Position numbers and translations under genes: made by a program
Shown: positions 15,017 to 32,685 of the stretch, one piece after another
How positions within the stretch are numbered: the stretch's first letter is position 1
How the letters are laid out: the number at the start of each line of letters is the position of its first letter
Assembly: GCA_031264865.1 (NCBI GenBank)
Contig: JAISDJ010000213.1
Coordinates: forward strand, 1-47,478
Direction: 5' to 3'
DNA: 47,478 nucleotides
DNA from: Tannerellaceae bacterium
Lineage (GTDB): Bacteria; Bacteroidota; Bacteroidia; Bacteroidales; Tannerellaceae
Notes under the pieces: model-generated
Told to the model about the DNA's origin: nothing
Database searches by the model: none
What the model saw: the letters and a program-made list of their open reading frames with translations, nothing else

Positions 15017-18000
15017 TTACTTGTATTCTTTCCAGCTTTTTATTTGCAAATCATCGATACTTAATGTACAGAAAGCAGTAATAAATGCATCAGCCAACCG
15101 TGCATTGGTAAGTAATGGAATGTTTAAATCAATAGATGCACGGCGAATTTTATATCCATTGTCTAACTCTCCGGCAGACAAATCACGTGGGATATTTACC
15201 ACCATATCTATTTTCTTTTCGTGAAGTAATGTGAGGGCTTGCGGTTCACCTTGTTCGCTTGGCCAATATACATGTGTACAGTTTATATCGTTTTCTTCCA
15301 AAAACCGGTATGTACCACCTGTTGCAAACAAATTATATCCTTTTTTTGCCAAGAGACGAGCAGCGTCTAGCATATCAGCCTTCTGTTTAGGCGTGCCTGT
15401 TGAAAGTAAGATGTTTTTTTCCGGTATCCGATACCCCACAGAAAGCATACTCTTTAATATGGCTTCATATGTGTCATCGGCTATACATCCTACTTCACCG
15501 GTCGACGCCATATCAACCCCTAATACCGGGTCGGCTTTCTGAAGACGGCTAAAAGAGAACTGTGAAGCCTTTATACCTACATAATCTAAATCGAATGCAT
15601 TTTTGGTAGGTTTATGCACCGGCAATCCCAGCATTACACGGGTAGCTAATTCGATGAAATTAATCTTCAGTACCTTACTTACAAAAGGAAAACTACGCGA
15701 GGCTCGTAAGTTACACTCAATTACCTTAATTTCATTTCCCTTGGCAAGATACTGGATATTGAAAGGGCCCGAAATATTAAGTTCTTTCGCTATCTGCCGA
15801 CTGATACGTTTGATTCGGCGTACCGTCTCAACATAAAGCTTCTGGGCAGGAAATTGTATGGTGGCATCGCCGCTATGGACGCCTGCAAATTCTATATGCT
15901 CGCTAATAGCATACATGATTATCTCACCTTTTTCGGCAACCGCATCTACTTCTACCTCTTTGGCATGTTCGATAAACTGGCTTACTACAACGGGATGTTT
16001 CTTACTAACATTTACGGCTAATTTAAGGAAACGTTCTAACTCTTCCTGATTTGAGCAAACATTCATAGCAGCCCCGCTTAATACATAGCTCGGACGAACC
16101 AACACGGGGAAACCTACCTCTTCAACAAAACTATTGATGTCTTCCAAACTGCTAAGTTCTTTCCAACGCGGTTGGTCTACACCGATACGATCGAGCATAG
16201 CCGAGAATTTATGACGGTCTTCTGCATTATCAATACTTTTAGCAGACGTACCCAAGATATTGACATGCTGTTCGTCTAACCGCATCGCCAGATTGTTTGG
16301 TATTTGTCCGCCTGTTGATACAATCATGCCATACGGATTTTCCAATTCATGAATATCCATTACCCTTTCAAAAGTAAGTTCGTCGAAGTACAGGCGGTCG
16401 CACATATCATAATCCGTCGATACGGTTTCCGGATTATAATTAATCATTACAGATCGCCATCCTTCTTTCCGGACTGTATTGAGCGCCTGAACGCCGCACC
16501 AGTCAAACTCTACCGAACTTCCGATACGATAGGCTCCCGAACCCAATACGACAATTGATTTCTTATCACCTAAATAATGAACATCATCTTCCATACCGCT
16601 ATAAGTAAGATACAAATAGTTTGTCTGAGCAGGATATTCGGCGGCTAATGTGTCGATTTGTTTTACAACCGGTTTTATTCCTCTGTATTTTCTTTCCTGA
16701 CGTACTTGCATACTGGCTTTTTCCGAATCCGTCATACTATCTTTAAGTATCGCCCGTGCTATTTGAAAGTCGGAGAATCCCTGTATTTTTGCCTCCCAAA
16801 GTAACAGATCCGAAATATCGGAGATCCGATCAAGACGTTCCAGTTTTTCTGCTGTTTGGATAATATTATATAGCTTCTGTAAAAACCATCTATCTATTTT
16901 CGTCAAATCATGAATCTGGTCAACTGTATATCCGGCGCGGAATGCTTTACTGATAACGAATATACGACGGTCGGTCGGTTCATTCAAGGCTTTGTTAATA
17001 TCAGGTAAAATCAATTCTTTGTTTTCAACAAACCCATGCATCCCCTGCCCTATCATACGGAGCCCTTTCTGGATAGCTTCTTCAAATGTCCGTCCGATAG
17101 CCATTACCTCGCCTACCGATTTCATGCTCGATCCTAATTCACGGGCCACACCATGAAACTTACCTAAATCCCAACGTGGAATTTTACAAACCACATAATC
17201 TAAAGCCGGCTCAAAGAAGGCGCTTGTGATCTTAGTTACCGAGTTTTTCAGGTCGAATAATCCATATCCTAAGCCTAATTTGGCGGCTACGAAAGCTAAT
17301 GGATAACCTGTCGCTTTAGAAGCCAGTGCGGAAGAACGGCTTAGCCGGGCATTTACTTCGATCACACGGTAATCTTCACTTTCCGGGTCTAAGGCGTATT
17401 GTACGTTACATTCGCCTACAATTCCAATATGGCGTATAATACGAATGGCCAACTCACGCAATTTATGATATTCCGAATTAGTGAGCGTTTGAGACGGAGC
17501 TATTACGATGCTTTCTCCCGTATGGATGCCTAATGGATCGAAATTTTCCATATTACATACGGTCATACAGTTGTCGAAACGGTCGCGCACTACTTCGTAT
17601 TCCACTTCTTTCCATCCTTTCAAGCTCTTCTCTACTAATACTTGCGGAGAAAAGGAGAATGCTTTTTCAGCCAAGACATTCAGTTCTTCTTCATTATCGC
17701 AGAAGCCCGAACCTAACCCTCCTAAAGCATAAGCTGCACGGATAATAACCGGATAACCTAGTTCTACTGCCGCCCTGCGGGCATCTACTATATTGTTTAC
17801 AGCTTCGCTCTTTATTGTTTTTACATCAATTTCATCTAATTTACGAACAAACAATTCACGGTCTTCCGTATCTATAATAGCCTGTACGGGAGTTCCCAGC
17901 ACCTTTACATTATACTTTTCTAATACGCCACTTTGGTATAAGGCAACTCCACAGTTCAACGCTGTCTGTCCGCCAAAAGCCAAAAGAATACCTTCCGGAC

Positions 18001-19417
18001 GTTCTTTCTCTATTACTTTCTCTACGAAAAAGGGAGTAATGGGAAGGAAATAAACCGTATCGGCTACTCCATCTGATGTCTGTACGGTTGCAATATTGGG
18101 ATTTATTAATACGGTTTCAATTCCTTCTTCCTTTATCGCTTTAAGCGCTTGCGAACCGGAATAATCAAACTCTCCCGCTTCTCCAATTTTTAAAGCTCCT
18201 GAGCCTAAAATAAGAACTTTTTTCAGTTGAACGTTCTTTTCTTTTGTTTCCTTATCTGTTGCCGGTTTTCCATTATCAATGGTCAACTGCCCATTTTCCA
18301 TTGATTCTACGAACAGGTCGAATATAAATTCCGTATCCGTAGGCCCACTATTGGCTTCGGGATGGAATTGCGAGGAGAAAAAAGGTTTTGTTTTATGCTT
18401 TATGCCTTCATTGGTACCATCGTTCATGTTTATAAAAAGGGGTTCCCATTCGGCGCCTAATGTATCGTTGTCTACCGCATATCCATGATTCTGCGATGTG
18501 ATAAAGCACCTTTCCGTACCAACCAACCTGACCGGCTGGTTGTGACTGCGATGACCGTATTTCAATTTATAAATGGAAGCGCCTCCGGCTTTGCCTAGTA
18601 ATTGGTTCCCCATACAGATACCACAAATTGGCTTATTGCCAGATAAAGCTTTTCGTATATTCCGAACAGCTACATCACATGTATCAGGATCGCCGGGGCC
18701 GTTGCTGATAAACAACCCGTCGTAATCCATATCGTTAAAATCGTAGTTCCAGGGAACTCGGATAACCGTTACATTTCTCTTTAACAGACAACGAATAATA
18801 TTGTGTTTAACGCCACAGTCTACAAGAACTACCTTCTTTTTGCCTTCTCCTTCTCCATAGATAATTACTTCTTTGGTAGAAACCCTGTCTACATAGTTGA
18901 TATTTTCATAGTCTACAACAGCAAGTTGGGAGTTAGCTACTTCTTTTATTTCTTCATCGCTCATGGCTGGATATTCATCGCCAATAAGAATAACGCCTGT
19001 CATGATTCCCCGTTCACGCAAAAGCTTTGTCAGGCTTCGGGTATCAATACCATAAATACCCGGTATCTGTTCTCTTTTCAACCAATCCCCTAAACTTTCT
19101 TTTGCATTCCAATGGCTGTATTCATGGCTGTAATCGCTCACAATAATAGCATCGGCATAAATACGGTCACTTTCCATAAAGGTTGCTAAACCGTTTGGTT
19201 CAAAAGTAAATGGAGGAACACCATAATTCCCAACCAACGGATAAGTAAGAACCATTAATTGACCAGCGTATGAAGGGTCTGTTAAACTTTCAGGATAACC
19301 TGTCATTGCTGTATTAAATACTACTTCACCGGCAACAGACTTTTCATATCCAAAAGATTTACCACGAAAAACACTACCATCGTCTAAAACTAAAATCGCT
19401 GCTCTTTCTGTATACAT
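15017..19417 (-). CDS. carAB: Fused carbamoyl-phosphate synthase, small plus large subunit
   Basis: It makes carbamoyl phosphate from glutamine, bicarbonate and 2 ATP for pyrimidines and arginine. In most bacteria CarA and CarB are separate; here they form one uninterrupted chain of 1466 residues. Residues 1-372 are CarA: nucleophile Cys268 in GICMGNQLLG and the His/Glu pair in FHPEA (352-354). Residues about 373-396 are a linker reading MENGQLTIDNG and then charged residues. From about 397 the CarB part follows: VLILGSGALKIGEAGEFDYSG, the two ATP-grasp halves (second starts VVLGSGAYRIGSSVEFD) and a C-terminal methylglyoxal-synthase-like allosteric domain. All key residues appear intact, so the fusion should be active. 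The linker DNA is a copy of an interspersed repeat. The gene starts 23 bp after the purF-like gene. Confidence 0.95.
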   Translation of the reverse strand: MYTERAAILVLDDGSVFRGKSFGYEKSVAGEVVFNTAMTGYPESLTDPSYAGQLMVLTYPLVGNYGVPPFTFEPNGLATFMESDRIYADAIIVSDYSHEYSHWNAKESLGDWLKREQIPGIYGIDTRSLTKLLRERGIMTGVILIGDEYPAMSDEEIKEVANSQLAVVDYENINYVDRVSTKEVIIYGEGEGKKKVVLVDCGVKHNIIRCLLKRNVTVIRVPWNYDFNDMDYDGLFISNGPGDPDTCDVAVRNIRKALSGNKPICGICMGNQLLGKAGGASIYKLKYGHRSHNQPVRLVGTERCFITSQNHGYAVDNDTLGAEWEPLFINMNDGTNEGIKHKTKPFFSSQFHPEANSGPTDTEFIFDLFVESMENGQLTIDNGKPATDKETKEKNVQLKKVLILGSGALKIGEAGEFDYSGSQALKAIKEEGIETVLINPNIATVQTSDGVADTVYFLPITPFFVEKVIEKERPEGILLAFGGQTALNCGVALYQSGVLEKYNVKVLGTPVQAIIDTEDRELFVRKLDEIDVKTIKSEAVNNIVDARRAAVELGYPVIIRAAYALGGLGSGFCDNEEELNVLAEKAFSFSPQVLVEKSLKGWKEVEYEVVRDRFDNCMTVCNMENFDPLGIHTGESIVIAPSQTLTNSEYHKLRELAIRIIRHIGIVGECNVQYALDPESEDYRVIEVNARLSRSSALASKATGYPLAFVAAKLGLGYGLFDLKNSVTKITSAFFEPALDYVVCKIPRWDLGKFHGVARELGSSMKSVGEVMAIGRTFEEAIQKGLRMIGQGMHGFVENKELILPDINKALNEPTDRRIFVISKAFRAGYTVDQIHDLTKIDRWFLQKLYNIIQTAEKLERLDRISDISDLLLWEAKIQGFSDFQIARAILKDSMTDSEKASMQVRQERKYRGIKPVVKQIDTLAAEYPAQTNYLYLTYSGMEDDVHYLGDKKSIVVLGSGAYRIGSSVEFDWCGVQALNTVRKEGWRSVMINYNPETVSTDYDMCDRLYFDELTFERVMDIHELENPYGMIVSTGGQIPNNLAMRLDEQHVNILGTSAKSIDNAEDRHKFSAMLDRIGVDQPRWKELSSLEDINSFVEEVGFPVLVRPSYVLSGAAMNVCSNQEELERFLKLAVNVSKKHPVVVSQFIEHAKEVEVDAVAEKGEIIMYAISEHIEFAGVHSGDATIQFPAQKLYVETVRRIKRISRQIAKELNISGPFNIQYLAKGNEIKVIECNLRASRSFPFVSKVLKINFIELATRVMLGLPVHKPTKNAFDLDYVGIKASQFSFSRLQKADPVLGVDMASTGEVGCIADDTYEAILKSMLSVGYRIPEKNILLSTGTPKQKADMLDAARLLAKKGYNLFATGGTYRFLEENDINCTHVYWPSEQGEPQALTLLHEKKIDMVVNIPRDLSAGELDNGYKIRRASIDLNIPLLTNARLADAFITAFCTLSIDDLQIKSWKEYK
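18270..18303 (-). repeat. Interspersed repeat copy inside the CarA-CarB linker
   Basis: The linker DNA contains ATTATCAATGGTCAACT (18272-18288) with self-complementary CCATT...AATGG flanks. The same 17-mer with one change occurs at 32669-32685. Read on the minus strand it encodes the QLTIDN peptide typical of a repeat that is spread through Bacteroides and Parabacteroides intergenic regions. Here it lies in frame between the two former subunits. Confidence 0.6.
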
Positions 19418-19440: not shown

Positions 19441-21345
19441 TTAAATAGGTAATTGGATATTTTTAGTAAGATAATCTTCTTCCATAAAATTGATGAATGC
19501 ATTGTTTACCATTCGTACTCCGCCGGAAGTAGGATAATCGCCTGAGAAATACCAGTCGCCCGGATGATTCGGACAAGAGGCATGTAAACCTTCAAGTGTT
19601 TGATACACGATTTCAACCTTCGCTTTTGTTTCTTTGGGAGTTAGTAATTCAACCATTTTAGCAGCTATTTCTTCATCTGTAAATGGTGCATATATTTCTT
19701 TTACATAGTTTACGAGTACATCATCCGGTTTGCCTTGTTGTTCTTTTGCTTTCTTATAGATAGTATGTATAAGCGATACTTGTTCTTTTTCTTCCAATAA
19801 AGCCACAGCAGCTCTAAATGCAATAAATTCATTCATTCTTGACATGTCTATACCATAACAGTCCGGATATCTTACCTGCGGAGAGGAAGAAACAATAACA
19901 ATTTTCTTAGGGCCCAGGCGATCCAGAATGCCGATAATACTTTGCTTAAGCGTTGTACCCCTTACAATACTATCATCTATCACCACCAGATTATCTACTC
20001 CCGGACGGATACTTCCATAAGTAATATCATATACATGCGCAGCTAAATCATTACGACTGTTTCCTTCGGCAATAAATGTACGCAGTTTTATATCTTTTAT
20101 GGCAACCTTTTCAGTACGAACTCGCATCGATAATATCTGTTCCAGCTCTTCTTCACTCATCCAGGAGTTCCGTCCGGCTATCCACTCTTTCTTTTTCCTG
20201 TTCAGATACGCATTCAATCCTTCCTGCAAACCAAAATAAGCAACTTCGGCCGTATTGGGTATAAATGAAAAAACCGTATTGTTCGTATCATAATCAACAG
20301 ACTTCAAAACAGGATATACAAGATTCATTCCCAAATGCTTCCTTTCTTTATAAATATCCATGTCGCTACCGCGTGAGAAATAGATCCGTTCAAAAGAACA
20401 GGCGCTTAATCTTTTTGGTTCAATAATCTGAGAAGTCCGGACTTGTCCGTCCTTACTTACTATAATCGCTTCTCCCCTATCCAGTTCGTTTACTTTATCA
20501 ACAGTTACATTCATCACGGTTTGTATTACCGGGCGTTCGGAAGCAACCACTACTATCTCGTCGTCCTGATAATAAAATGCCGGGCGAATCCCCCAAGGGT
20601 CGCGCACGCTGAATGATTCGCCGCTGCCTGTCAGTCCGCAAATAACAAAACCTCCGTCCCAAAGGGGAACACATCGTTTCAAGACATTAGACATATCTAC
20701 CCTGTTTTCAATAGCATGTGTAATATCCATTCCTTGCAAACCCTCTTTTTCACACTGTTGATACAGGCGCTCTACCTCACGGTCTAACCGATGTCCCATT
20801 TGTTCCAGTATAATATTGGCGTCGGCATATAACCGGGGATGTTGCCCGATAGATGTTATTTCCCTGAAAATTTCATCTACATTCGTAAGATTGAAATTTC
20901 CGCAAAGAGCTAAATTCTTTGCACGCCAGTTATTACGACGAAGAAATGGGTGGATAAAAGAAATACCGGACTTGCCGGTAGTACTGTAACGTAAATGCCC
21001 CATGTAAAGTTCCCCGGCGAATGGTAATTGCGCCTTTGCAAAAAAGGGGTCGATAAGTTTTTCTTTAGGAATATCTTTAAAATGTTCGTAGACGGAAGCA
21101 AAGATGTCTGTTATAGCTCCGGTTCCAACGGCTCTCTCCCTGAACATATACTCTTCTCCGGCATTTGCCTGTAATTTTACGCAAGCCAAACCGGCGCCTT
21201 CTTGTCCCCGGTTATGTTGTTTTTCCATTAACAGATAGAGTTTATTCAAACCATACATCCAACTACCATACTTTTTATGATAATATTCCAAAGGCTTCAA
21301 TAATCGGACCATGGCAACTCCGCACTCATGCTTTAGTTCTTCCAT
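19441..21345 (-). CDS. Amidophosphoribosyltransferase-like protein (class II GATase + PRTase)
   Basis: It resembles PurF, which transfers glutamine-derived ammonia to PRPP in the first step of purine synthesis. The start is set at the ATG at 21345 so that the N-terminal MEELKHECGVA places Cys8 near the front, as needed for an Ntn-type glutaminase nucleophile after propeptide removal; upstream in-frame sequence (to 21405) is not protein-like. The phosphoribosyltransferase domain is shown by the PRPP loop VIDDSIVRGTTLKQS near residue 450. At 634 residues it is about 150 longer than E. coli PurF, so it may be a paralogue with a different or regulatory role. It heads an operon with carAB, which suggests nucleotide synthesis. 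Confidence 0.82.
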   Translation of the reverse strand: MEELKHECGVAMVRLLKPLEYYHKKYGSWMYGLNKLYLLMEKQHNRGQEGAGLACVKLQANAGEEYMFRERAVGTGAITDIFASVYEHFKDIPKEKLIDPFFAKAQLPFAGELYMGHLRYSTTGKSGISFIHPFLRRNNWRAKNLALCGNFNLTNVDEIFREITSIGQHPRLYADANIILEQMGHRLDREVERLYQQCEKEGLQGMDITHAIENRVDMSNVLKRCVPLWDGGFVICGLTGSGESFSVRDPWGIRPAFYYQDDEIVVVASERPVIQTVMNVTVDKVNELDRGEAIIVSKDGQVRTSQIIEPKRLSACSFERIYFSRGSDMDIYKERKHLGMNLVYPVLKSVDYDTNNTVFSFIPNTAEVAYFGLQEGLNAYLNRKKKEWIAGRNSWMSEEELEQILSMRVRTEKVAIKDIKLRTFIAEGNSRNDLAAHVYDITYGSIRPGVDNLVVIDDSIVRGTTLKQSIIGILDRLGPKKIVIVSSSPQVRYPDCYGIDMSRMNEFIAFRAAVALLEEKEQVSLIHTIYKKAKEQQGKPDDVLVNYVKEIYAPFTDEEIAAKMVELLTPKETKAKVEIVYQTLEGLHASCPNHPGDWYFSGDYPTSGGVRMVNNAFINFMEEDYLTKNIQLPI

Positions 21346-21371
21346 CTGATTATATATATTTAAAAATCGCA

Positions 21372-21379
21372 CAAAGATA
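21372..21379 (-). promoter_or_regulatory. -7 element of the purF-like/carAB promoter
   Basis: TATCTTTG on the minus strand is an exact TAnnTTTG match 26 bp before the start codon. The -33 position has no TTG but is covered by the palindrome at 21391-21406. Confidence 0.5.
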
Positions 21380-21390
21380 TATAATTTTAT

Positions 21391-21406
21391 TGTGTTACAT
21401 AACACA
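21391..21406. promoter_or_regulatory. Operator-like palindrome TGTGTTA-CA-TAACACA
   Basis: A perfect 7-2-7 inverted repeat, extended outward with one G.T position to TTA/TAA (21387-21410), sits where the -33 element should be. TGTGT-N6-ACACA has the geometry of a Crp/Fnr-family site. The bound protein is unknown; the Crp-like regulator at 14305-14883 is a candidate. Confidence 0.5.
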
Positions 21407-32668: not shown

Positions 32669-32685
32669 ATTATCAATTGTCAACT
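32669..32685. repeat. Second copy of the interspersed ATTATCAATTGTCAACT repeat
   Basis: The 17-mer differs in one base from the one in the CarA-CarB linker (18272-18288). It overlaps the 3' end of the U32 peptidase gene and supplies its TGA stop. Confidence 0.5.

Follow-up and report, generated by a model that had tools for sequence, protein, structure and literature searches.

In the 47,478-nucleotide contig of a Tannerellaceae bacterium analysed here (JAISDJ010000213.1, assembly GCA_031264865.1; referred to as the window), carA and carB, which specify the small and large subunits of carbamoyl-phosphate synthetase (CPS), are joined on the minus strand in one open reading frame (ORF), CarA first, without a stop or frameshift. 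This fusion is common to relatives and is not a private event of the window genome: it is present throughout the clade to which the window's gene belongs. The linker between the two parts is hypervariable, and repeat arrays are found in the linkers of several relatives. In the window species the linker itself is repeat-like, and the fusion is probably older than this linker.

The fused ORF, delimited with family models and domains, occupies positions 15017..19417 of the minus strand and encodes 1466 amino acids plus a stop, the frame running from 19417 down to 15020 and then reaching the stop. The CarA part (residues 1-372; 18302..19417, minus strand) carries CPSase small chain and class I glutamine amidotransferase domains, and the CarB part (residues 399-1466; 15020..18223, minus strand) carries two ATP-grasp halves and oligomerisation and MGS-like domains. 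Between them lies the linker MENGQLTIDNGKPATDKETKEKNVQL (residues 373-398; 18224..18301, minus strand), the part that is hypervariable among relatives. The fused protein passed both NCBIfam models, TIGR01368 for the small subunit (455.1 bits, cut-off 307.35) and TIGR01369 for the large subunit (1552.1 bits, cut-off 1027), and the expected Pfam domains were detected. An earlier interpretation made from the letters and translations of this DNA, which we call the sequence-only reading, had proposed that CarA and CarB are one polypeptide, and this was borne out; the linker length of 24 residues given there needs correction to 26 (18224-18301). C268, H352 and E354, which we take to be the glutaminase catalytic triad of CarA, were invariant in an alignment of 13 fused proteins. 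The window's own assembly (G000) is a draft of 4.69 Mb in 376 contigs, approximately 94% complete. It gave four matches to the fused protein, one of them full-length and the only full CPS found in the draft; among the other three, two listed matches were weak (E 1.7e-9 and 6.3e-7). We consider it probable, as part of the explanation developed below taken as a whole, that the fused gene encodes a single-chain glutamine-dependent CPS, its activity and its translation as a single chain being predicted from the sequence. An ordinary glutamine-dependent enzyme would be expected, in which CarA would hydrolyse glutamine and CarB would use the ammonia, as in separate-subunit enzymes, while the linker would tether the CarA C-terminus to the CarB N-terminus over about the same length as in human CPS1.

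To place the fusion, carA/carB junctions were compared among relatives. Family counts are based solely on a CarB-only query of 123 genomes of the family (f1 of our genome collection), of which 111 matched and 84 gave a counted junction. The 39 uncounted genomes include copies of kept loci (e.g. G100, same contig as L036), four loci whose contigs lack CarA (L204, L218, L221 and L222) and genomes without a listed orthologous CarB. All other comparisons used 31 fused and 137 split rows, which mix family and non-family loci. The spacers are identical within four pairs of split rows, one pair being the same genome twice, and in six split family rows the CarA tail was unreadable by the motif used. 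The tree built from CarA and the CarB N-terminus has 166 rows, L029 and L183 of the 168 having been omitted for short CarA. Junctions were fused in 21 of the 84 family genomes and split in 63. The clade containing the window's CarAB was fused in 14 of 14 rows, with support of 98 in the 166-row tree and 96 in a 67-row tree. On the 166-row tree the fused label requires seven changes, five of them forced by starred branches, compared with a mean of 28.1 for shuffled labels. In the best tree three of the seven fall within the family, where the fused groups are the clade of 14 including the window (support 98), a clade of six in genera g9, g10 and g13 plus L036 (support 98), and G007 alone, adjoining the split G006 and G014. 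Non-family fusions among the rows were L053, L055 with L061, L088, and a group of five with Paludibacter. In the ancestor of the window's clade, the carA stop and a short carA-carB spacer would have become one open frame.

The linkers of fused genes differ widely even between close relatives. Those of the window (L001), L002 and L003 are 50-67% identical, with CarA 93-96% identical; the corresponding values are 62% and 89% for L007 and L009, and 58% and 92% for L016 and L017. Between L198 and L036 the CarB N-termini are 98.6% identical; their linkers, of 70 and 26 residues, share 28% identity over 25 aligned positions, with 46 gapped. Further rows of the 14-row fused clade carry differing, often GC-rich linkers. 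The reading frame is kept throughout this clade: its 369 linker codons include no in-frame stop, compared with 5-17 stops in each of the five other frames. The zero is a consequence of these loci having been called as fused, yet the clade contains no split row. Among the 31 kept fused linkers, 20 have no in-frame ATG and 8 have no in-frame ATG, GTG or TTG, which makes a separate CarB start unlikely in linkers that lack a start codon; the window linker does contain an ATG and a TTG. After the fusion, the reading frame would have been kept and the linker left free to change, as a tolerated site at which stop-free, in-frame short repeats (heptamer arrays and GC-rich palindromes) may be gained and lost.

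The sequence-only reading had described the window linker as derived from an interspersed repeat, and the repeat-like character of the linker was confirmed. Five degenerate heptamers (ATGGAAA ATGGGCA GTTGACC ATTGATA ATGGAAA; 18267..18301, minus strand) agree with the unit ATKGAYA in 30 of 35 bases, which is the highest score among the 94,888 positions at which the two strands of the window were compared with (ATKGAYA)5. The four top-scoring positions all lie inside the linker, at 7-base steps. None of 5000 dinucleotide shuffles of the junction reached 30 (the largest score was 25), with the caveat that the heptamer unit was picked after the repeats had been seen. The repeat resemblance of the window linker is real and exceeds chance. 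The description of the repeat as interspersed holds for some other genera and hardly for the window's own genome. A 28-base heptamer pattern, with overlapping hits counted apart, gave 206 hits in G025, 113 in G031, 65 in G032, 63 in G035 and 53 in G029, and 259 in G051, which belongs to another family; the reversed control pattern gave none in any of these six genomes. In the window's genus there were at most 8 hits per genome, with up to 6 for the reversed control, and the window's own genome had 1, outside the linker. The reversed control gave 6 hits each in G006 and G014. A few short arrays of roughly three units occur elsewhere in that genome, and no dispersed copies of the linker were found there with two 25-mer patterns allowing up to three mismatches, which matched the linker alone. 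A 17-base heptamer-repeat match (32669..32685, minus strand), to which the sequence-only reading had pointed as evidence, is short and AT-rich; it lies where a U32-peptidase gene reaches its 3' end, ahead of a gene for a cyclophilin-type isomerase. It is at chance level in the own-genome search (E = 3.2), and we rejected it as a part of the system or as having a causal role.

The order of events was addressed with the nearest sisters of the window in the tree. L002 and L003 (CarA 94.4 and 92.7% identical) are fused in the same way, but their linkers show no repeat-like character, the best heptamer scores being 18/28 and 17/28 compared with 24/28 in the window. The sequence-only reading had suggested that a repeat inserted between carA and carB fused the genes, and had named in advance fused relatives lacking a repeat-like linker as evidence to the contrary. 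L002 and L003 are such relatives, and together with the differing linkers of the 14-row clade they speak against a repeat insertion as the cause of the window's fusion. We infer that in the window the fusion came first and the repeat second, and that the linker is of repeat origin: it would most likely be an old, silently eroded heptamer array that entered an already fused gene.

Several observations weigh against this reading. Of 2000 synonymous re-encodings of the window linker peptide, using a rough codon usage taken from the approximately 1 kb that flanks each linker on either side, 942 reached the observed heptamer score, and the hairpin fold of the linker is no better than that of shuffles (z -1.08). 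With neither an excess at the DNA level nor a hairpin, the case for a repeat origin of the window linker is made by the peptide, and the re-encodings suggest that the linker is either old or a peptide-level coincidence. Judged as a coding palindromic element, the linker lies in frame within a housekeeping gene but is not palindromic, its 12-base arms matching at only 83%. We read it as an old array eroded at its silent positions, or in part as an inherited tail; if it is an insertion, it is at best an old one. In addition, the phase of the heptamers relative to the CarA end is identical in L001, L021, L013 and L196. Across the two family fused clades, this phase (an offset of 9+7k) outscores every other in 13 of 20 linkers and ties in 3 more; among the 11 other fused linkers it does so in 2 and ties in 1. 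The common phase could reflect one ancestral, eroded array and not later gains. The tree leaves room for such an ancestor, since the constraint uniting the two family fused clades was not rejected (P value of the approximately unbiased test, p-AU, 0.504), and neither were a+G007 (p-AU 0.265), a+G007+G006+G014 (0.396) and G007+G011 (0.285). An older, repeat-bearing fused ancestor is therefore possible, and the present tree, built from slowly evolving proteins, cannot fix the number or place of the fusion events.

Under a rival explanation, the insertion of a stop-free repeat in an ancestor would have done away with the carA stop and joined the two genes, and the array would then have eroded in most descendants including the window. 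This is possible, and we regard it as unlikely. Besides the phase and the unrejected single origin of both family clades, it would account for a shared linker start, L(H/Q)TGxL (e.g. LHTGKLNL in L010 and L036), and G007, discussed below, is a plausible case. However, in the split g16 genomes G032, G143 and G145 the stop is already preceded by the tail (E/Q)TGKLPEYIT, which suggests that both the motif and the shared phase may stem from an ordinary CarA tail. Moreover, heptamer DNA beyond that expected from synonymous re-encoding was found in only 4 of the 31 fused linkers, all within the two family clades: L013, L021 and L196 (0/2000 re-encodings reaching the observed score in each) and L198 (2/2000). 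Alternatively, drift and indels from an ancestral tail may have happened to give NGQLTIDNG, and the peptide resemblance would be a coincidence. The sisters read ESGQLAIG and ESGRLTTG at this place, hence the motif is partly inherited, and both the equally repeat-like synonymous codons and the scarcity of heptamer arrays in the window's own genome are consistent with this explanation. We nevertheless consider it doubtful given the heptamer match with its shuffle control and rank, and given that related CarAB proteins (e.g. L013 and L198) have linkers or loops in which a heptamer array encodes a closely similar peptide. An assembly or sequencing artefact, by which a stop was lost or an indel error introduced, might be suspected in a 376-contig draft, but is highly improbable since 20 other family genomes of the 84 counted are also fused, L036 is fused on a 372-kb contig, and linker lengths vary yet stay in frame.

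The preferred reading, of repeats entering an already fused gene, can be set beside what is seen in relatives. The CarAB gene of L198, in G025, contains two copies of a two-armed element of 122 bases, one in a CarA loop and one in the linker, both in frame and 90% identical to each other. The next best full-length copy in G025 is 75% identical, and the double element perhaps arose by intragenic copying or conversion. L036, a near twin of L198, is fused without its array. By eye, another, GC-rich inverted repeat was seen in a CarA loop of L196, and a run of heptamers in L021, in a different CarA loop. Hairpins with z < -3 were found in 5 of 31 fused linkers; the count for split spacers was 7 of 137, or 7 of 133 once identical spacers were removed. 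This association of hairpins with fusion is suggestive only, because fused linkers are longer and related to one another and because split spacers, too, can contain strong hairpins.

The fused gene of G007 fits fusion by insertion better than that of the window. Its linker is a GC-rich palindrome of the CCCCCTAAAGGGGG type (fold z -8.11). At E <= 0.01 the palindrome has 33 matches in G007, its own linker included, 37 in the window's genome and 1 in G011, counts in which a single palindrome may figure twice, once per orientation. No match at this threshold was found in the split tree neighbours G006 (70% complete) and G014 (84% complete). The linker is thus palindromic, dispersed and not found in split neighbours, as expected of a coding palindromic element, and G007 is the best candidate for a fusion by insertion. 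The linker of L004 (G011) shares 58.3% peptide identity with it over 24 positions, with 10 gapped, and shows no DNA match to the palindrome at E 0.01; this likeness in peptide without a match in DNA suggests that the G007 linker may be inherited or exchanged and not newly inserted. More broadly, stop-free short repeats might serve in Bacteroidales as ready-made protein linkers, their insertion at the carA-carB junction, with G007 as the best candidate, making single-chain enzymes of which the window linker would be a worn remnant. We put this forward tentatively and think it rather unlikely.

Other observations concern the same genes and repeats. A second CarB-like paralogue, approximately 65% identical, is present in G007 (G007:C12), G011 (G011:C57) and other family genomes; among the matches listed, neither G007 nor G011 has a strong second CarA. 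In L183 (G145), 782 bases separate the carA stop from carB, with an apparent further open frame inside. The gene upstream of the fused gene on the same strand of the window (19441-21405) matched amidophosphoribosyltransferase with 129.1 bits, under the model cut-off of 350. Heptamer arrays were also surveyed in 40 regions of G025 that omit the two CarAB arrays and three others. A general insertion of arrays into coding sequence of this genome was rejected, as 0 of 41 clusters lay in an ORF of at least 100 amino acids with at least 60 on both sides; 12 of the 41 were two-strand arrays in no such ORF. Fourteen of the 41 clusters lay 49-53 codons before an ORF end (L287, L269, L257, L280, L293, L270 and others), and these near-end arrays translate as IDNGQLTIDN or, from the other repeat strand, as LSIVNCQLSIVN at the same place. 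Among the proteins scanned, L287 was just above and L269 just below the cut-off of the type IX secretion system (T9SS) sorting domain. The PhoH-like protein L276 of G025 has a C-terminal tail, LIDNGQLTMDNEK, that is a translated heptamer array.

Fusions of this kind are already known in some bacteria, since a review (PMC6022934) states that CPS II of bacteria can be either a heterodimer or one fused peptide. The window protein resembles the single-chain CPS II type in having glutaminase then synthetase in one chain and in passing both family models. It differs in having many close relatives with split genes and a hypervariable linker, which in some relatives is built of repeats. Its best solved match was human CPS1 (PDB 5dot), with 1604.9 bits over residues 6-1450, the same order of parts and a similar linker length; the scores against E. 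coli CarB and CarA were 804 and 254.7 bits. This likeness is not due to the fusion, as L034, the one split Bacteroidales CarB tested, also leans to CPS1 (1227.8 bits, compared with 811.4 for E. coli CarB). Loss of the glutaminase Cys defines CPS I, the ammonia-type enzyme. The human protein reads GISTGN, with Ser at this position, whereas the window protein reads GICMGN and keeps the Cys, and so lacks the defining feature of CPS I. Rickettsia palindromic elements (RPE), like the coding palindromes of Wolbachia, are short in-frame insertions at tolerated places of housekeeping genes (PMC2996958 and PMC10969869). The L198 and G007 elements resemble RPE as so described, but are heptamer-built or GC-rich and belong to another phylum, and the window linker is neither palindromic nor dispersed at the similarity searched. 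PMC4679880 reports TAACTGA heptamer direct repeats in Beggiatoaceae, some Cyanobacteria and five Bacteroidetes. As reported there, these share with ours the tandem 7-base units and the multi-copy occurrence in some genomes; the unit differs, and the repeats described here are often inverted pairs and partly translated. A literature search of open-licence papers found no report of repeat-built CarAB linkers.

A single bacterial family thus contains both fused and split forms of one enzyme, and its linkers are found at different stages. This makes it testable how a pair of adjacent genes turns into a single multidomain enzyme, and whether the linkers come from mobile or structural repeats. The fused forms also offer a natural set of single-chain CPS enzymes with the glutaminase Cys retained, against which eukaryotic CPS can be compared.

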